A stretch of DNA of 36,133 nt from a virus. The first letter of the stretch is position 1. Every line of letters begins with the position of its first letter. The notes below the pieces were generated by a model, which was given only the letters and a program-made list of their open reading frames with translations, did not search any database and was not told the origin of the DNA. The stretch lies in the IMG/VR virus record IMGVR_UViG_3300020185_001492, positions 1 through 36,133 of that record; one strand, 5' to 3'. Below are positions 12,899-27,134 of this stretch, one piece after another. Both the position numbers and the translations under genes were made by a program.

Positions 12899-13059
12899 TG
12901 AACAAGAAGACTTTACAACCTATCGAAGTGATTAATAAGATTCAAGAAAAAATAGAGCTCAAAAAGAAACTTAGAGATAACAAAGAAGATAAGAAGGCCA
13001 AAAAAGAATTAGTCAAGATTGATAAACAGTTAAAGAATAGTACACTCTCTAAGATATGA
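12898..13059 (+). CDS. Small basic helical protein (53 aa)
   Basis: Starts [20 protein letters not shown] and is almost entirely charged helix (KKKLRDNKEDKKAKKELVK). Linked at both ends: TAATG with gp41 and ATGA with the next gene, which supports it as a real gene. Its position after gp41 is suggestive of a helicase accessory factor, but there is no motif to back that. Confidence 0.62.
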   Translation: MNKKTLQPIEVINKIQEKIELKKKLRDNKEDKKAKKELVKIDKQLKNSTLSKI

Positions 13060-13679
13060 AAGTTCTACTATTAGGTACTGGTCGTTGTGGAACTTCTAGA
13101 CTTATTTGGGCATTGGGTGAACACTATAACATTCCGTTCACTTCCGAACCATTCAACTGGGATTATCAAAAAACTTCTAGACAAACAGAAGAGTATGTTG
13201 TATCCGATAATCATGCAATAAAATGTCTACCATGTTATCAACAATACATAGACCCCGAACTAAAAATACTTACACACGAGGAAGATGCAAGAGAAAGAAC
13301 CCTTTGGTTTATGGATTTAAGTTTAAAGTTTGATAAAGTAATCTTAATGACTAGAAAAGATTTATCACAAAGATTATTATCGGTTCTACATGCACAAAAA
13401 CATGGAACATGGTGGGAGAAGTACAACTTTAACCCTGTAGTCCTCACTGAAAAAGATAAACCAATTATAGACGATTTTTTCTATACAGAAAAGGTTATTA
13501 ATTCTATATCACAACAACTTGCAATACCCATAACATACATGGAAGATTTATATACTAAAGATATAGAAAAATCTAAGGAAACATGGTTATCCTTTACACA
13601 AGACTTTGAATATAAAGGAGACAACTTTATTGAAATATATGAAAAATTCTTCTCTTCAATGCATAAACAAAGAACTTAA
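13056..13679 (+). CDS. Sulfotransferase-like P-loop protein, copy 1
   Basis: 207 residues. MKVLLLGTGRCGTSRL is the N-terminal PAPS 5'-phosphate loop of the sulfotransferase superfamily; SEPFNWD follows, and VILMTRKDLSQRLLSVLHAQ matches the 3'-phosphate-binding block where R and S bind PAPS. Likely transfers sulfate to a sugar or a protein. The acceptor is unknown. A paralog lies at 14154. The start overlaps the upstream stop (ATGA). Confidence 0.7.
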   Translation: MKVLLLGTGRCGTSRLIWALGEHYNIPFTSEPFNWDYQKTSRQTEEYVVSDNHAIKCLPCYQQYIDPELKILTHEEDARERTLWFMDLSLKFDKVILMTRKDLSQRLLSVLHAQKHGTWWEKYNFNPVVLTEKDKPIIDDFFYTEKVINSISQQLAIPITYMEDLYTKDIEKSKETWLSFTQDFEYKGDNFIEIYEKFFSSMHKQRT

Positions 13680-14153: not shown

Positions 14154-14792
14154 ATGAGAATTTTGATGATTGCCACGGGTAAGTGTGGTTCCAATTCATT
14201 AACAAATGCAATATCAGAAGACCACCATTTAACATGGGTAAATGAACCTTATAATGATTCAATGAATCATTCAGAAAGTCCTTATAGTATATCAGAGAAA
14301 CGTGAGTTAGTCAATTCTGATAATGTTATTGTAAAGTGTATAAATGGACTGTATCAACATTCTAACTCTAAAACTCAATCCCCCTATGATGATATAGAAA
14401 TACGAAATGAGTTCTTTAAGTCATTCTCTAAAACTTTTGATAAGGTAATCCTACTAGATAGAAGAAGTGAGTCTGATAGAATAATTTCAGTATTACATGC
14501 ACATCAAAATAATACTTGGAGTCAAAAAGAAAAGTATGAAATTAAAGATGTGGTTCTTAATAAACACTGGGCTCCATACTTAGAACACATTTGTCACCAA
14601 ACAGATTCAATCAATAAACTTTCAGACGACCTTGATTTACCTATATATCGTCTCGAAGATATTTGCACTAAAGACTATGAATTGTCAGAAAAAACTTATA
14701 ATAATATTATAGGAACTAAGAACTGTAAATTTTCATATCTGTATGAAACCTACTTCCACCCTACACATAAACAGGGTATTAAAATTACCTAA
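14154..14792 (+). CDS. Sulfotransferase-like P-loop protein, copy 2
   Basis: 212 residues, paralogous to the gene at 13056: MRILMIATGKCGSNSLTNAI is the PAPS loop, WVNEPYND aligns with the EPF block, and VILLDRRSESDRIISVLHAH aligns with the 3'-phosphate block. The remainder, including a common C-terminal YLYETYF / YEKFF pattern, is diverged. No clear promoter; a CTAAACTT sequence at 14141 is too weak to call. The stop TAA is inside the next late promoter. Confidence 0.68.
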   Translation: MRILMIATGKCGSNSLTNAISEDHHLTWVNEPYNDSMNHSESPYSISEKRELVNSDNVIVKCINGLYQHSNSKTQSPYDDIEIRNEFFKSFSKTFDKVILLDRRSESDRIISVLHAHQNNTWSQKEKYEIKDVVLNKHWAPYLEHICHQTDSINKLSDDLDLPIYRLEDICTKDYELSEKTYNNIIGTKNCKFSYLYETYFHPTHKQGIKIT

Positions 14793-14831: not shown

Positions 14832-16031
14832 ATGGGCGCAAAGAATTTACATTTAGAACACTTAGAAGACGAGATTATCAATCAAGGTATTGATGGTGGT
14901 CGTGGTGCGATAAACTTCTTAAGAGGTCTTAGAGACATGATGAAGGGCAATTCTAAATCTTCTGTAAATATGACTGTAAAATGGGACGGAGCTCCTGCAA
15001 TCTTTTGTGGTAAGCACCCCGAAACTAATCAGTTCTTTGTTGCAAAAAAATCTCTATTTAATAAAGAACCTAAGTTCTATACTTCAGAACACGAAATTAA
15101 AAACTCAGACCTTTCGGGTCAACTACAAGAAAAATTCTTAACTTCATTTCAGTGTTTATCTAAACTATCTTGGAATACAATCATGCAAGGTGATTTAATG
15201 TATACTGATGATAAAACAAATAAAATTATAGATGGTAAAGAATATATAACTTTCCAACCAAACACTATTTTATATGCTGTAGATAAAGATTCTGAATTGG
15301 GTAAGACAATCGATAGTTCTAAAATGGGTATTGTGTTTCACACTACTTACACTGGTGGAACAATAGAAGACTTGTCTGCAAGTTTTGGTGCAAAGATATC
15401 CAATCTTGGAAGTAGTACAGATGTTTGGATAGATGATGCATCATATAAAGATGTGTCGGGTAATTCAACACTTACTGCAAAAGAAACACTTAAACTTACA
15501 CAAGAATTATCTCTAGTCGGTAAAGCATTCCATGGAATCAAAAAAACAGACTTAGTTAAGTTTCAAAAAATACAGGAGACTATCGCAAAGAAAGGTGCAG
15601 GTGCAACTTACAAAACATATTGTAATACACTTATAAGAGGCGGCTCATACAAACCAACATACAATGGATACATGAAACATTTTGAAAATTACTGGAGAGA
15701 TAAGGTAGTTGCAAAAGTTAAAATGGAAAAAACTAAACAAATTAAAACAGAGATTGGAGAACAACTTTATAACGAACTTCGTAGTTTAAATAAGTTCATT
15801 ACCAATCTTACTAAGTTCATGGAACACTTAGTAATTGCAAAACAGTTGATTATTGAAGGACTAAATAGAGTAAAGAGTATAGGAACCTTTAAGAAAACAA
15901 CAACAGGATTTGAAGTTGTAAATCCCGAGGGATATGTTGCAATTGATAAATCAGGAAGTGCAGTCAAACTTGTAGATAGAATGGAGTTTGCATTCAATAA
16001 CTTTACTGCACAAAAAAACTGGGACAAGTAA
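14832..16031 (+). CDS. DUF6267-like protein with ligase/nucleotidyltransferase motifs
   Basis: 399 residues. A conserved marine T4-like phage family that I believe is DUF6267. VKWDGAPAIFCG (Lys50-W-D-Gly53) matches motif I (K-x-D-G), the lysine that takes AMP in ATP-dependent ligases and capping enzymes. MQGDLMY (118-124) could be motif III, PEGYVAID (Glu366-Gly367) fits motif IV, and VKL (Lys379) could be motif V. The gap between III and IV is larger than usual. I therefore read it as a possible polynucleotide ligase or other nucleotidyltransferase; no activity is established. Adjacent to an NMNAT/kinase gene, start to stop overlapping (TAATG). Confidence 0.72.
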   Translation: MGAKNLHLEHLEDEIINQGIDGGRGAINFLRGLRDMMKGNSKSSVNMTVKWDGAPAIFCGKHPETNQFFVAKKSLFNKEPKFYTSEHEIKNSDLSGQLQEKFLTSFQCLSKLSWNTIMQGDLMYTDDKTNKIIDGKEYITFQPNTILYAVDKDSELGKTIDSSKMGIVFHTTYTGGTIEDLSASFGAKISNLGSSTDVWIDDASYKDVSGNSTLTAKETLKLTQELSLVGKAFHGIKKTDLVKFQKIQETIAKKGAGATYKTYCNTLIRGGSYKPTYNGYMKHFENYWRDKVVAKVKMEKTKQIKTEIGEQLYNELRSLNKFITNLTKFMEHLVIAKQLIIEGLNRVKSIGTFKKTTTGFEVVNPEGYVAIDKSGSAVKLVDRMEFAFNNFTAQKNWDK

Positions 16032-17314
16032 TGAAAAAGACATTCGGAAAATTTCTAACAGAGGCAAAAGACAAAGGTGCAGTTTTTACTTTTGGACGTT
16101 TCAATCCACCCACAACAGGTCATGGAAAGTTAGTAGATAAACTCAAAAAAGAAGCAAAAGGATATGAAGTTCTTTTGTTCTCTTCTCATTCAAATGATAA
16201 GTTAAAGAATCCCCTTTCACATAAAGATAAAATAAAATACCTAAGAAAGTTTTTTGGTCGTATTGTGGTAGACGCAGACGCAAGAACTGTATTCGATATT
16301 GCAAACGAATTACAACACAAAGGGTATAATAAAGTAAGAATGGTTGTGGGTTCAGACCGAGTAAAAGAATTTGAAATACTATTAAACAAATACAATGGAG
16401 TCAAAGCACGACATGGATACTATAAGTTTGAAAGTATAGAAGTAATCTCTGCAGGAGAAAGAGACCCCGAGGCAGATGATGTCAGTGGAATGTCTGCAAG
16501 TAAAATGAGAGCATATGCAGAGAAAGGTGATTTTGATAACTTTAAACTAGGAGTCCCTAGTAGAAAAAATAAAGATAAAGAACAATTATATAAAGATATT
16601 CGTAAAGGAATGGGTATTGCAGAAGGTACACTACCTGCATATATGTATGAAGACTTAATTACAGAAGGAGTCTATGACCCAGGCACGTTCAAAGCAGTTT
16701 TCTTTTCAGGTGGGCCAGGAAGTGGTAAGTCAACAGTAGTCGATGCACTTTCACTAAAAGCACTTGGTCTTAAACTAGTCAATACAGATAAAGCATTTGA
16801 GGTTGGTCTAAAAAAGGCAGGAATGACACTTGACCTTAGAGGTGCAGACTTTGATAAGGTAGACCCAATCCGTGCAAAAGCAAAAAAACTAACTGGTAAG
16901 AACATGGATAACTATATTGATGGTAGACTTGGGTTGATATTTGACACTACAAGTGCAAACCTTACAAAGGTAAAAGCATACAAAACAATGTTAGATAAAA
17001 TCGGATACGAGTCAAAAATGATATACGTAAGTGCATCATTAGATAATGCACAAAAAAGAAATGCATCTAGACCAAGAAAATTACCAAAAGAAATAGTTAA
17101 ACAAGACTGGGACAATGCACAAAAAAATGCACAATCCTTAAATAGGATATTCGGCAAAGACTACATTGAAGTCACAAATAATGACGATTTGAAATCACTA
17201 GAAACCAAAGCAAACAAACTCTATTCAAAACTCATGACATGGACTACTTCATTCCCAAGTAATAAACCTGCATTGAAGTGGAGAGAAACAGAACTACAGT
17301 CTAAAAAGACATAA
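16031..17314 (+). CDS. NMNAT-like nucleotidyltransferase fused to P-loop kinase, with capsid-targeting-like N-terminus
   Basis: 427 residues in two domains. The N-terminal domain (about 17-190) is a HxGH-type nucleotidyltransferase: FTFGRFNPPTTGHGKLVDKL (TTGH) and the closing SGMSASKMRAYA (ISSTxxR equivalent), as in NMN adenylyltransferase or cytidylyltransferase. The C-terminal domain (from 215) is a kinase/zeta-toxin-like P-loop: FFSGGPGSGKSTVVDAL. The first residues, MKKTFGKFLTEAKDKG, closely match the T4 internal-protein capsid-targeting peptide with cleavage expected after Glu11 (LTE-A). Two more such sites, IAE-G (Glu198) and ITE-G (Glu212), flank the linker between the domains. It may therefore be packaged and split in the head. 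Substrate unknown. Confidence 0.83.
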   Translation: MKKTFGKFLTEAKDKGAVFTFGRFNPPTTGHGKLVDKLKKEAKGYEVLLFSSHSNDKLKNPLSHKDKIKYLRKFFGRIVVDADARTVFDIANELQHKGYNKVRMVVGSDRVKEFEILLNKYNGVKARHGYYKFESIEVISAGERDPEADDVSGMSASKMRAYAEKGDFDNFKLGVPSRKNKDKEQLYKDIRKGMGIAEGTLPAYMYEDLITEGVYDPGTFKAVFFSGGPGSGKSTVVDALSLKALGLKLVNTDKAFEVGLKKAGMTLDLRGADFDKVDPIRAKAKKLTGKNMDNYIDGRLGLIFDTTSANLTKVKAYKTMLDKIGYESKMIYVSASLDNAQKRNASRPRKLPKEIVKQDWDNAQKNAQSLNRIFGKDYIEVTNNDDLKSLETKANKLYSKLMTWTTSFPSNKPALKWRETELQSKKT

Positions 17315-17322: not shown

Positions 17323-18294
17323 ATGGATATGTTAAACACATTACTAGAAAAGAAAAAGGTCGCACAAGATAAGGATATCAAAGACCGTGACGGTACTCAA
17401 CCTAAGAAGTATTTTGCAAAAGATGCTGACGGTGATGAAATGGCAAAATCTACAAAAGACGCTCGTGCAAGACACTTCGAAAAAGGCAGAAAGGCTGCAG
17501 ATGATGATGATTCTGCATATGAACCTGCACCAGGCGATAAGTCTGCAGAAACCAAACCCTCACAACACACTAAAAAATATAAAAAAATGTTTGGAGAAGT
17601 AGAAGAGGGTAAACTAGTTTCTAGTATTGCTGAGATTATTGATGCAATTTTTAAAACACTTAAACGAAAATTAGAATCGGAATATAAAAAGAACCCTGAA
17701 AAAGGTCTTGGTATGATTAACACCGTAGGGTCATTTATAGGTTATAAAGTGACTGATAAGAAACAAGAAAAAAATAAACTGTTCCTTAAGTTTGGTGATA
17801 ACATACAAGAAGACGCGGCTGTTGATGCCGCTCAACTAAAGGCAAAACATGCTGAACAGATGGAAAGACTCAAGGCAAACCATGAACAAGAGTTAGAAGC
17901 ACTTAAAGATAGACACGAAAGAGAAACTTCTAGAATAGACCAACAGAAAGAGAAAGAAACTCAAGACAAACAAATTCAATCTAAAAGAGACGCAGATAGA
18001 AAATCTGCAGAAAAGAAAAAGGAATCTCAACAAGAAGAAAGAGATTATAAAAAAGAGTATGCAGACTACCATTCAAAACCTGAACAGGTTAAAAGAAGAA
18101 CAAAAAGAAATGAGGCACGAAGAAGTCTAAAAGATAGAAAAGATATAAAAGGAAAGGACGTTCATCATAAGGATAACAATCCCATGAACAACGATAAGTC
18201 TAACCTATCAATCGTATCACAAAAATATAATAGGTCTGAACCAAGACTTAGAAAACTAAAAGAGAAAGGGATATTACCAAATGGCAGGAAATAA
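17323..18294 (+). CDS. Late coiled-coil protein with C-terminal HNH-like motif
   Basis: 323 residues, very rich in Lys, Glu and Asp. Residues 1-90 are disordered-looking, 97-160 a folded segment, 165-245 a long coiled coil, and the C-terminus has KDVHHKDNNPMNNDKSNL (His281, His282, Asp284, then Asn), the core of HNH endonucleases, followed by SIVSQKYNRSEPR. Possible prohead-protease sites are VEE-G (95) and IQE-D (163); the latter sits just before the coiled coil. Likely a late protein, perhaps internal to the head, carrying a nuclease. It overlaps the next gene by 14 nt. The HNH zinc or metal ligands are only partly visible, so nuclease activity is inference. Confidence 0.68.
   Translation: MDMLNTLLEKKKVAQDKDIKDRDGTQPKKYFAKDADGDEMAKSTKDARARHFEKGRKAADDDDSAYEPAPGDKSAETKPSQHTKKYKKMFGEVEEGKLVSSIAEIIDAIFKTLKRKLESEYKKNPEKGLGMINTVGSFIGYKVTDKKQEKNKLFLKFGDNIQEDAAVDAAQLKAKHAEQMERLKANHEQELEALKDRHERETSRIDQQKEKETQDKQIQSKRDADRKSAEKKKESQQEERDYKKEYADYHSKPEQVKRRTKRNEARRSLKDRKDIKGKDVHHKDNNPMNNDKSNLSIVSQKYNRSEPRLRKLKEKGILPNGRK
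17794..17811 (+). repeat. 18-bp exact repeat, copy A (encodes GDNIQE)
   Basis: GGTGATAACATACAAGAA. The same 18 nt occur at 22385-22402 in another late gene, in the same frame. In both places it encodes GDNIQE, with IQE a possible prohead-protease site. Confidence 0.85.
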
Positions 18295-19477
18295 ACACGA
18301 CAACGGTGTACATGAACAAGGTACAGACGAAACAAGAATGGCATATCAAGAAGACACGCCTGGTCAATCAGTAGAGAAGTATATCGAAGATAGAAATAAG
18401 GCATATCATGAAGAGGCCATAGAAAAGAAAAAGAAACACTTTAGTCAAGTGTTCCAAAACCCTTTAAAAGGATTCCCTTACAACGAAGAGTTTGAAGTGT
18501 CACTGAAAGAAGACACCGAATTATCAGAAATGACTCAAGAAGTTGAACTTGACGAAGATTTTATGAGTTTTCTTGCAGTTGCATTACCAACCTTTATAGG
18601 AATAAATACAGTCGCATTAGTAGGCCTCATGGCATCCGAAATGGCAGGATTTGATATTGTTGGTAAAACTGAAAAGGCATTAGAAAACATAAAAAGTAAA
18701 TTTAAAAGAAATAAAAATTATAAACCTTCAAAAAGTGAACTAGAAACTCTTACAAAAATTGGTCAGGAAGTTAAAAAGAAAGACCCTAGTGCATACAAGA
18801 AAGCAGAAGCAAAAGCAAAAAGTATGAAAGAATCTTTTGAACCTCTAGAAGAAGGAACATTGGCTATTGGTCTTAAAGATAGAGACCCAAAAGAAAGAGC
18901 AAAAGCACAAGCACAACTGAAAGTAATGTTAAAGAAAATTGGTAATAAGAAAGTAGGTTCTAAAGAAGGTCAACAATTTGAATATGATATGGATTACGAC
19001 ATATTGTCAGATGATATATTGGCAGATGAGTTTGCAAATCCAAAAAACAAAAATATGAAGGTCAAAGACTTGTTGAAGAAACATTCAAAAAGACTTAATG
19101 TTAATTTTGACGAATCAGTAGAAGAAGGATTTGCAGACAGACAGAGAGAAAAAACTAAGTCTCAACAGAAAGCACATCAAAAATCAATGATTAAAATTGC
19201 AAGAAAATCTATCAAAGACTACGAGAAAAGAAATAAAAAGGAAGAGATAGAAGAAAATGCAGATGCATCTCTTAAAAAGAAATCAGAAAAGAGTGGTATA
19301 TCAGTCGGTATTCTAAAACAAGTATACAACCGTGGAGTCGCCGCATGGAAGACTGGACATAGACCAGGCACAACTCCTGAGCAATGGGGACATGCACGTG
19401 TTAATTCTTTTATCACTAAAGGTAGTGGAACATGGGGTAAGGCAGATAAAGACCTCGCAAAGAAAGCTGGCGGGTAA
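18281..19477 (+). CDS. DUF5824-containing late protein
   Basis: 398 residues. The C-terminal 65 residues (SGISVGILKQVYNRGVAAWK, then GHRPGTTPEQWGHARVNSF) match the phage domain DUF5824 as I recall it; its function is unknown. Residues about 95-122 form one hydrophobic segment (FMSFLAVALPTFIGINTVAL and on) that could cross or insert into a membrane. The middle is charged and helical. Possible cleavage sites are PLEE-GTL and SVEE-GFADRQ. The ATG lies within the upstream gene's end and the TAA overlaps the next ATG, so the block is coupled. Confidence 0.72.
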   Translation: MAGNKHDNGVHEQGTDETRMAYQEDTPGQSVEKYIEDRNKAYHEEAIEKKKKHFSQVFQNPLKGFPYNEEFEVSLKEDTELSEMTQEVELDEDFMSFLAVALPTFIGINTVALVGLMASEMAGFDIVGKTEKALENIKSKFKRNKNYKPSKSELETLTKIGQEVKKKDPSAYKKAEAKAKSMKESFEPLEEGTLAIGLKDRDPKERAKAQAQLKVMLKKIGNKKVGSKEGQQFEYDMDYDILSDDILADEFANPKNKNMKVKDLLKKHSKRLNVNFDESVEEGFADRQREKTKSQQKAHQKSMIKIARKSIKDYEKRNKKEEIEENADASLKKKSEKSGISVGILKQVYNRGVAAWKTGHRPGTTPEQWGHARVNSFITKGSGTWGKADKDLAKKAGG

Positions 19478-20010
19478 TGAAAACATTTAAAGAACTTGCA
19501 ATCAACGAAACACTTGATACACTTCAAGAGTCTAATACTAATCTATTAGACAATCCGTTTAGATTGGGTTCTATGATGTACTTTGAGGTAATCAAAGAGG
19601 CAAGAAAGAGATTAAATGAAGGTCGATACACACTTACAGAGGTCGACAAACAAATTTTAGAGACTGATTTAGGAGAGTTTGATATATGTGAAGGTGAATT
19701 AGTACCTTTAGATTGTCCTATGATTGTTGAAGAAGAAGAAAAGGAACCTGAACTCAACAAACCAAAAGTCGGTGGGTCTAAGAAGTACTATGTCTATGTT
19801 AAAGACGGAGACAAGGTCAAAAAAATATCATGGGGAGACACTACAGGTCTTAAAGTTAAATTAAATAACAAAGACGCAAGAAAGTCTTTTGCCGCTCGTC
19901 ATAAATGTGACCAACAGAATGACAAAACAAAGGCAGGATACTGGGCATGTAGATTACCACACTATGCAAAACAACTCGGATTGAGTGGTGGTGGGTCTTT
20001 TTTTTGGTAG
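19477..20010 (+). CDS. Late protein with CTS-like N-terminus, DUF5872-like C-terminus
   Basis: 177 residues. The N-terminus MKTFKELAINETLD resembles, less perfectly than others here, the T4 internal-protein targeting peptide (INE-T); LNE-G lies near residue 48. The C-terminal domain has YYVYVKDGDKVKKISWGDTT and ARKSFAARHKC, then GYWACRLPHY, a pattern of a small phage domain I recall as DUF5872 or similar, with two conserved cysteines. Function unknown. The codons for the last residues (SFFW) include a run of eight T (19998-20005), a possible slippage or sequencing-error site. Confidence 0.68.
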   Translation: MKTFKELAINETLDTLQESNTNLLDNPFRLGSMMYFEVIKEARKRLNEGRYTLTEVDKQILETDLGEFDICEGELVPLDCPMIVEEEEKEPELNKPKVGGSKKYYVYVKDGDKVKKISWGDTTGLKVKLNNKDARKSFAARHKCDQQNDKTKAGYWACRLPHYAKQLGLSGGGSFFW

Positions 20011-25816: not shown

Positions 25817-26380
25817 ATGAGTAAGTTAATCAACACATTAATAGTTTTTAAGATTATAAAGATGTTAACAACACCTTTTGAAAAGACTAAAGCATATGAG
25901 TTAGGTCTTATTGATAGAATGGGTGTGAGACAAAAAGACAGAAAAGTAGAGACTCGAGACGAAAAGGCTGCATACACTATGTTAGACCGACTAGTGTTTA
26001 ATCTTAAAAGAGTTATAGAAAAAGTACCATTCGGTAAATCTAAATTTGCATCATATGCTATTGCACTTGCACTACTAAAAGAAGAAACTCAAATGACTGC
26101 AAGTCAGACTGATGAACTATGTGAAGACTTTTATAAGTATCTCAAAGAATATGGTTTACTAGAGGTAGAAGATTTAACTGAAGCTGCAAAGATTCCTACT
26201 GGATTGGTAGGAGAGACTTATAGACTAAGACGACAATTAAAAGAACAAAACGACAAAATTTATCCTGAAAAAACTGAAATACAATTAGTGGGAGAACATA
26301 GTATTATCTATGGAATCAAACTATATGTTGGCAAGATTGAAGAGGATAGGGTGTTGGTGACTGCAGATGACTTATATTAA
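25817..26380 (+). CDS. Conserved T4-like phage protein of unknown function
   Basis: 187 residues. INTLIVFKIIKMLTTPFEKT, KAYELGLIDRMG and KRVIEKVPFGKSKFASYAIA are recurring blocks in marine T4-like genomes; I recall no assigned function. Helical, with a short hydrophobic start that is not a clear signal peptide. The C-terminal 40 residues are beta-type. An alternative start is the ATG at 25862. It overlaps the next gene by 14 nt. Confidence 0.72.
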   Translation: MSKLINTLIVFKIIKMLTTPFEKTKAYELGLIDRMGVRQKDRKVETRDEKAAYTMLDRLVFNLKRVIEKVPFGKSKFASYAIALALLKEETQMTASQTDELCEDFYKYLKEYGLLEVEDLTEAAKIPTGLVGETYRLRRQLKEQNDKIYPEKTEIQLVGEHSIIYGIKLYVGKIEEDRVLVTADDLY

Positions 26381-27134
26381 GAATATACTAGAGGTTAATA
26401 ATTTAGTATTCGATAAAGACCCACCTAAAAAATTTAAAAAGAAAGAGGCAGATAAACTCTTTGACGATAAGTGGTTGGACATGAAAGTCCCCGAACCACC
26501 TAAAAACGATTCAAGACAAACACTCGGAGAAATCAATGAAATAATTGATAGAAGAGAAATGTTATCAGATTTCAATAAAAAGGTCTACATACACACAAAT
26601 AAAGATACTTCTTATTATATAAAGGAACACTTGGATAGTCAAGACCTAGAGTATGATTTAAAGGACATAGAACGCATTACAGACAGTGCTAAACACATTG
26701 GTAGATATTATAAGAACAAGTTCAATAGACCAAGACCTAGACAAATTGCAGAGAAATTAGGAATTGATAAGTTTACATACGAAAAATTAGAGACGACAGG
26801 TTCCCCTGCATATCCTTCTAATCATGCATTACAGGCACGAATGGTCGCACATTACTATGGTGAAAAGTACCCTGCACAAAAGAAATACCTTCTCAAGGCG
26901 GCTGACATGAGTGCAGAGGGACGAGTGAATGCAGGAGTACACTATCCTTCAGATAAACAATGTGCATATATGATTGCAGATACAATTAAAGACTATTTCA
27001 AAACAGATAAATTAACTGAAGATGCACCTATGAATGCAACAGGAAGTGCAGTATCAACAGACGTACCTATTGTTCGTAAAAAGAAAAAACATGTCCCAAA
27101 TCTTGTCTTTGATAAGATATACAGACGCAAGTAA
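26367..27134 (+). CDS. PAP2-family phosphatase
   Basis: 255 residues. The three PAP2 motifs are in order: K-x6-RP as KNKFNRPRP (Lys116, Arg123-Pro124), PSNH (150-153) in place of PSGH, and R-x5-H-x3-D as Arg186, His192, Asp196 (GRVNAGVHYPSD). Such enzymes remove phosphate from lipids, undecaprenyl pyrophosphate, nucleotides or, in the related haloperoxidases, use vanadate. No membrane helix, so it is a soluble class A acid-phosphatase-type member. The segment NLVFDK occurs at both ends (residues 12-17 and near 246). The C-terminal APMNATGSAVSTDVP plus a basic run is a tail type I recall from other virion proteins. Confidence 0.85.
   Translation: MTYIKNILEVNNLVFDKDPPKKFKKKEADKLFDDKWLDMKVPEPPKNDSRQTLGEINEIIDRREMLSDFNKKVYIHTNKDTSYYIKEHLDSQDLEYDLKDIERITDSAKHIGRYYKNKFNRPRPRQIAEKLGIDKFTYEKLETTGSPAYPSNHALQARMVAHYYGEKYPAQKKYLLKAADMSAEGRVNAGVHYPSDKQCAYMIADTIKDYFKTDKLTEDAPMNATGSAVSTDVPIVRKKKKHVPNLVFDKIYRRK

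Follow-up and report, generated by a model that had tools for sequence, protein, structure and literature searches.

The internal proteins IPI-III and Alt of phage T4 lose a peptide to gp21 in the prohead and are delivered together with the DNA (PMC9026906, PMC9958956). Cleavage by gp21 follows the rule L/I-x-E (PMC9026906). In phiKZ-like phages and SPN3US, several cut sites are sometimes found within one propeptide (PMC9026906, PMC10052503). The polyvalent proteins described by Iyer et al. in 2017 are multidomain proteins that are delivered with the DNA, include zeta-toxin-like kinase domains and were likened by these authors to viral polyproteins (PMC5512222). In cyanophages, Sullivan et al. 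detected the protein family GC190 in virions of S-SM1; it was not detected for S-PM2 (PMC3037559). Virions of S-CREM2 contained a cytidylyltransferase, for which the authors caution about co-purification (PMC10665884). In the open literature that was searched, no case is described in which gp21 frees two enzymes from a common precursor.

Here we analyse a DNA of 36,133 nucleotides from a marine T4-like virus (the window), a 36-kb fragment with T4-like replication genes; the gp21/gp23 region lies outside it. One of its genes encodes an NMNAT-like domain and a P-loop kinase in a single chain. Our best explanation, to which we assign a probability of about 0.6, is that this protein is a head-packaged precursor that is cut in the head into two enzymes.

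Domain organization and motif placement

The fused gene (16,031 to 17,314, plus strand, as are its parts, the DUF6267 gene and the four downstream genes below) was delimited by its open reading frame, Pfam domains and an AlphaFold model, and encodes 427 amino acids. Its first 11 residues, MKKTFGKFLTE (16,031 to 16,063), form a predicted capsid-targeting-like peptide with a predicted cut after E11. Residues 12-198 (16,064 to 16,624) are the NMNAT-like nucleotidyltransferase domain, which matches the phrog_3041/395 cytidyltransferases and, at residues 20-118, the Pfam family CTP_transf_like (PF01467, 28.8 bits against a cut-off of 21). It carries GRFNPPTTGH and SASKMR, corresponding to the GxFxPxxxGH and SxSxxR motifs of NMNAT-like nucleotidyltransferases. 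Residues 213-427 (16,667 to 17,311) form a P-loop kinase of the polynucleotide-kinase/zeta-toxin type with the Walker A sequence GGPGSGKS; Zeta_toxin/AAA_33 is placed at 221-386, and the kinase matches comprise Zeta_toxin (5.7e-11), AAA_33 and AAA_17. Between the domains lie two candidate prohead-protease sites, IAE198/G at the C-terminal edge of the NMNAT domain (16,616 to 16,624; a slash marks a predicted cut) and ITE212/G (16,658 to 16,666), and the linker 199-212 (16,625 to 16,666; YMxEDLIxE). Residues 197-220, at 16,619 to 16,690, read AEGTLPAYMYEDLITEGVYDPGTF.

A preliminary description, made from the sequence alone, had named LTE-A (E11), IAE-G (E198) and ITE-G (E212) as cleavage motifs, the latter two 14 residues apart. 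All three are present with this spacing, and the claimed position of E198 and E212 at the joint between the domains is borne out by the Pfam borders at 118 and 221 and by model disorder at 200-214. The claimed N-terminal targeting peptide is likewise supported, as MKKTFGKFLTE/A resembles the start of T4 IPII/IPIII in the T4 record, MKTYQEFIAE/A. The fragments of about 22 and 24 kDa that had been proposed agree with calculated masses of 21.2 kDa (12-198) and 23.9 kDa (213-427). The protein has no [LI]xE motif besides those of E11, E198 and E212, and VKE at 113 is the sole further [LIV]xE; proteins shuffled at constant composition contain a mean of 2.8 motifs. An arrangement with one or more motifs in 1-13, two or more in 196-214 and no others was obtained in about 1e-5 of 200,000 composition-preserving shuffles, with regions that were picked post hoc, after the model and the claim had been seen. 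Within the folded cores of both domains, 68 fused homologues average 0.68 [LI]xE per protein compared to 1.9 expected.

The AlphaFold model of the fused protein was built from 43 fused homologues. Its pLDDT is below 50 at residues 1-13, 145-152 and 200-214, and the motif sites flank or fall within two of these three disordered stretches (1-13 and 200-214). E198 comes after the last NMNAT helix (180-193). The pTM is 0.47, so the mutual position of the two domains is undefined. Modelled alone from 67 relatives, the kinase reached a pLDDT of 91.5 and a pTM of 0.86 and was ordered from its first residue, G213, where the kinase fold starts directly after the predicted E212 cut. Its nearest PDB folds are the polynucleotide kinase (PNK) 4gp7, zeta toxins, adenylate kinases and dephospho-CoA kinases (for 4gp7, TM 0.73 by target length and rmsd 3.9). 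In sequence searches against the PDB, neither the kinase nor the fused profile gave a match.

Bacterial NadR has the same domain order, NMNAT and then kinase, and Foldseek aligns NadR 6gzo across both domains. The fused protein could thus be a single bifunctional NadR-like enzyme, possibly packaged with the loss of only the N-terminal peptide, in which the linker would serve domain docking or substrate transfer; invariant linker residues beyond the sites (see below) also fit this. We regard it as unlikely, because TM-scores to NadR are only 0.24-0.28, the pTM of 0.47 and the disordered linker do not suggest a fixed arrangement, and the two enzymes are separate elsewhere, far apart in phage Melnitz and adjacent in HTVC008M. 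The kinase has no match to the Pfam domain AAA_28, the ribosylnicotinamide-kinase domain of NadR. Membership of the NadR family was rejected on the kinase family (Zeta_toxin, AAA_33 and AAA_17 instead of AAA_28) and on TIGR01526, which scored 24 against a cut-off of 341 and covered residues 20-75 only.

Conservation of the candidate sites and the linker

Conservation was assessed in the 68 distinct fused homologues. The fused gene was seen in uncultured contigs only. E198 is present in all 68, always with I or L at P3 and with eight different residues at P2. E212 is equally invariant, with I, V or L at P3 and Gly at P1' in 68/68 and seven different residues at P2. E11 is kept in 67 of the 68. 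Conservation of [LIV]xE was nevertheless rejected as proof of cutting, since E113, which lies within the NMNAT fold, has the same pattern and is equally conserved.

It had been proposed that the sites are conserved while the linker drifts. The first part holds for E198 and E212; the second does not, as the linker residues P202, Y204, E207, D208 and L209 are invariant in the 68 homologues. The linker is conserved beyond the needs of a discarded spacer, and this counts against the precursor reading, as do two sequences (L180 and L187) that have no N-terminal peptide and retain the linker. Because it does not drift, the linker looks like a retained targeting peptide and not like a neutral spacer.

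For E198 the evidence is divided. The NMNAT fold does not need this residue, since the free-standing NMNATs of the jumbo phages G17, RaK2 and PA5oct and the S-PM2 protein stop before its equivalent, and the IAE198-type site is missing from a related NMNAT clade. On the other hand, an equivalent of E198 is also found in NMNATs without a kinase (MGVRE, MGLKE), and three NMNATs (L208, L212 and L245) have LKKE there, with the Leu out of place. These sequences would fit a variant that overlaps with the best explanation, in which cutting is confined to E11 and E212, the conservation of E198 belongs to the NMNAT C-terminus itself and the NMNAT keeps a 14-residue tail. We consider this variant possible, at odds clearly below even, given the NMNATs that end before E198 and the pattern of I/L at P3 with a free P2 in 68/68. 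The chances that E198 is used as a cut site appear evenly balanced. As sites, E212 is strongly supported and E198 moderately.

Origin of the linker site

The decisive evidence comes from comparison with relatives, in most of which the kinase has a gene to itself. Its free-standing form has a T4-like N-terminus, MKTFxELQE/GVYDP, with which the fused linker aligns. Among 122 distinct free-standing kinases, the P1 Glu is present in every one, P3 is Leu (90), Ile (29), Met (2) or Val (1), and P2 is occupied by 11 different residues. ITE212/G thus corresponds to the N-terminal LxE/G of these proteins. In the isolate Melnitz EXVC044M the kinase starts with MKTFAELQE/GVYDP, and its gene is far from the Melnitz NMNAT gene; in HTVC008M, also an isolate, the kinase (gp129) starts with MIPFILKE/GLYDPG and adjoins a cytidyltransferase gene. 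L234, the closest relative without the fusion, encodes NMNAT and kinase in two separate genes that overlap and follow the order of the fusion, with the kinase start MTLEETYASLNE/GINDPG. In the kinase tree, the fused NMNAT-kinase sequences form one group (100/100), which L234 adjoins (96/63). Because separate kinases bear the LxE/G start and L234 is an unfused sister, the most plausible reading of the E212 site is an N-terminal site that was inherited. It is rather likely that E212 is a retained targeting and processing site.

M205 aligns with the start Met of the free-standing kinases, so the kinase could in principle also be made separately from an internal translation start. This is extremely improbable: position 205 is Ile in 5/68 homologues, and no purine-rich ribosome site is found at the usual spacing, with AGAAGG ending 16 nt upstream.

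The kinase is also carried by 17 contigs from metagenome-assembled genomes (MAGs) or single cells (L328-L344, comprising bacterial and archaeal MAGs among the GTDB genomes). Nearly all of the kinases read from them have the same LxE/G start, and one is an 83-aa fragment. These contigs are probably misbinned phage contigs. Their use as a cellular control was dropped on account of the phage-type start on nearly all of them.

Many relatives (L257-L325, for example L258, L266 and L280) carry nearby a second, different adenylate-kinase-like P-loop kinase. This second kinase likewise begins with a start peptide, for example MKSFRDFIFE or MKTFLDFITEAE, that is particular to it.

Protease and virion context

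Two larger genomes, G001 (145.9 kb) and G007 (51 kb), carry the fused gene together with gp21 and an LxE-type gp23. The region of their gp23 that aligns to the T4 maturation site reads NLEE/AAPLNATG or SLEE/AAPLNATG. The NMNAT family of the fused protein is T4-GC190. The S-SM1 member starts with MKKFSAFLNE/A, and that of S-PM2 comes after a DUF6267-like segment and lacks such a start. The presence of the start peptide thus tracks detection in virions in a comparison of one phage with one, which is suggestive only. In published virion proteomics, the NMNAT family is reported; for the kinase, we found no evidence from virions.

It might be argued that the [LI]xE motifs are fortuitous and that the protein works in the infected cell and not in the virion. 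The motif is short, E113 is as conserved as the candidate sites, and N-terminal enrichment across the HTVC008M genome is weak (11 of 167 ORFs, 6.6%, against a background of 4.5%, with a crude ORF caller). However, T4-like N-terminal peptides are found on both enzymes when these are separate, the placement probability of about 1e-5 is low even if post hoc, and the family occurs in virions of S-SM1 and S-CREM2 (PMC3037559, PMC10665884). We therefore consider fortuitous motifs very improbable.

Related fusions and multi-enzyme chains

LxE sites are also present at different joints in other lineages. In L294, L302 and L326 an adenylate-kinase-like domain is joined to this kinase, and in L294 the sole [LI]xE of the whole ORF sits at this joint. 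L326 (fused, GKTLNEFRHYLNE/G) and L311 (separate, MKKTLDEIRQYINE/G) lie close together in the tree, and their peptides are similar. L276 encodes a four-enzyme chain, kinase-PAP2-NTase-NMNAT, of about 1181-1195 aa. LxE is found around its domain borders at 226/276, 428 and 612/631/712, and one site lies also inside PAP2. Its PAP2, kinase and small downstream module match separate parts of the window, and the 650-aa NMNAT protein of Melnitz corresponds to modules from four genes of the window.

Where an NMNAT is preceded by 60 or more codons of open frame (59 distinct proteins), [LIM]xE[AGS] stands directly before the fold in 46, compared to 1.6 expected; because the sequences are related, these are not independent events, and about ten different peptides are involved. 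S-PM2, P-SSM2, S-SM1 and S-SCSM2R have no site immediately before the internal NMNAT, which counts against the precursor reading; in the latter three, it is the protein itself that starts with a T4-like peptide. The full targeting-peptide pattern inside proteins was found 3 times against 1.0 expected, which is not significant.

In L217 (2501-3700), an NMNAT protein starts with the T4-like FKSFSEYLTE/A, and a copy-like peptide, LKSFSQSLEE/A, is found at residues 317-330 or so, directly before a DUF5824-like module.

A group of marine T4-like phages may, with about equal odds for and against, fuse separately packaged proteins into head-packaged polyproteins of two to at least four enzymes, in which former targeting peptides act as cut sites. 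The enzymes involved would be NMNAT, polynucleotide-like kinase, adenylate kinase, PAP2 phosphatase and NTase. If former targeting peptides are kept as cut sites between domains, the capsid-maturation protease would double as a polyprotein-processing protease.

Neighbouring genes

The upstream partner of the fused gene (14,832 to 16,031) encodes a DUF6267 protein (Pfam 5.8e-100; phrog_455), a GC71-type neighbour in S-SM1 (the S-SM1_189 neighbour). No [LI]xE was found near its N-terminus. This protein carries VKWDG, which resembles motif I (KxDG) of covalent nucleotidyltransferases and ligases. Further upstream, the ORFs at 13,056-13,679 (start MKVLLLGTGRCGTS) and 14,154-14,792 (start MRILMIATGKCGSNS) look sulfotransferase-like by eye.

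Downstream, two genes at 17,323 to 19,477 are modules of NMNAT proteins in other phages, matching residues 397-480 and 516-595 of HTVC008M gp130 and residues 266-337 and 376-442 of the Melnitz protein. The next gene (19,477 to 20,010) has a targeting-like start, MKTFKELAINE/T, and corresponds to residues 473-650, the module at the C-terminus of the NMNAT protein of Melnitz. A PAP2-like gene (26,367 to 27,134) corresponds to module 248-477 of the four-enzyme ORF of L276. Near its C-terminus, the PAP2-like protein reads KLTE-DAPMNATGSAVSTDVPIVRKKKK, closely like the sequence after LxE in a gp23 of the same phage group (L357), NLEE/AAPLNATGSAVANWNPILISLVRR; this likeness could possibly reflect a shared head-interior signal. 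A short motif, GTDxxR...TPGQ, recurs in many such proteins of several modules, at 18,281-18,450 of the window, in L203, L235, L276 and C48C1 and in HTVC008M gp130.

Proposed mechanism

A targeting peptide in front and cut signals between the enzymes suggest packaging in the head, cutting there and injection of both enzymes. We infer this course, including packaging of the kinase and an enzymatic role of the products, as follows. Peptide 1-11 would target the chain to the prohead core, like the T4 internal proteins. A prohead protease of the T4 gp21 type would then cut on the C-terminal side of E11, E212 and probably also E198, and these cuts would remove both the targeting peptide and the linker of 14 residues. 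Two free enzymes, one NMNAT-like of 21 kDa and one polynucleotide-kinase-like of 24 kDa, would be left in the head, and both would be injected into the bacterium with the DNA. The linker would descend from the N-terminal targeting peptide of a kinase whose gene was once separate; this gene was presumably fused in frame to the upstream NMNAT gene with its targeting peptide kept.

The injected enzymes may have a role in NAD restoration or nucleic-acid end repair early in infection. Judging from sequence, the DUF6267 protein and the neighbouring PNK-like kinase could be an end-repair pair, and an early NAD-related activity might bear on NAD-depleting defences. If the proposal is true, T4-like phages follow a virus-style polyprotein strategy: a single head-maturation protease matures the capsid and also frees the injected enzymes. 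From the very start of infection, the host would contain NAD-related and end-repair-like activities. Additionally, injected cargo would become predictable from sequence alone in abundant ocean phages, and the locus would illustrate how chains of several enzymes arise in evolution from single cargo proteins.

Comparison with known systems

Head proteins of phiKZ-like phages and SPN3US resemble the fused protein in being cut after Glu in a short motif (PMC9026906, PMC10052503). In phiKZ, however, this motif is S/A-x-E, and multiple cuts remove propeptides and are not presented as separating two enzymes. Bacterial NadR shares the order of NMNAT and P-loop kinase in one chain, but its kinase belongs to another family by sequence, and there is no significant full-length match. 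The cyanophage T4-GC190 proteins belong to the same NMNAT-like family and have a T4-like start peptide and, in S-SM1, DUF6267 upstream; unlike the window protein, they are not fused to a kinase. With T4 IPI-III and Alt the fused protein has in common the short N-terminal capsid-targeting peptide ending in [LI]xE (PMC9026906, PMC9958956). The T4 proteins are single proteins trimmed at their ends, whereas a two-enzyme chain with a targeting-type site in between is not described there.

Polyvalent proteins are the nearest published concept (PMC5512222). The words nicotin- and cytidylyl- are absent from that paper, and Pfam scans of the fused protein and of L276 found no peptidase domain, which is common but not universal in polyvalent proteins. 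These proteins are processed by their own peptidase domains (PMC5512222), whereas the predicted cutter here is a separate gp21-type protease. The likeness lies in the joining of two or more biochemically disparate domains, NMNAT and kinase in the fused protein and four enzymes in L276.
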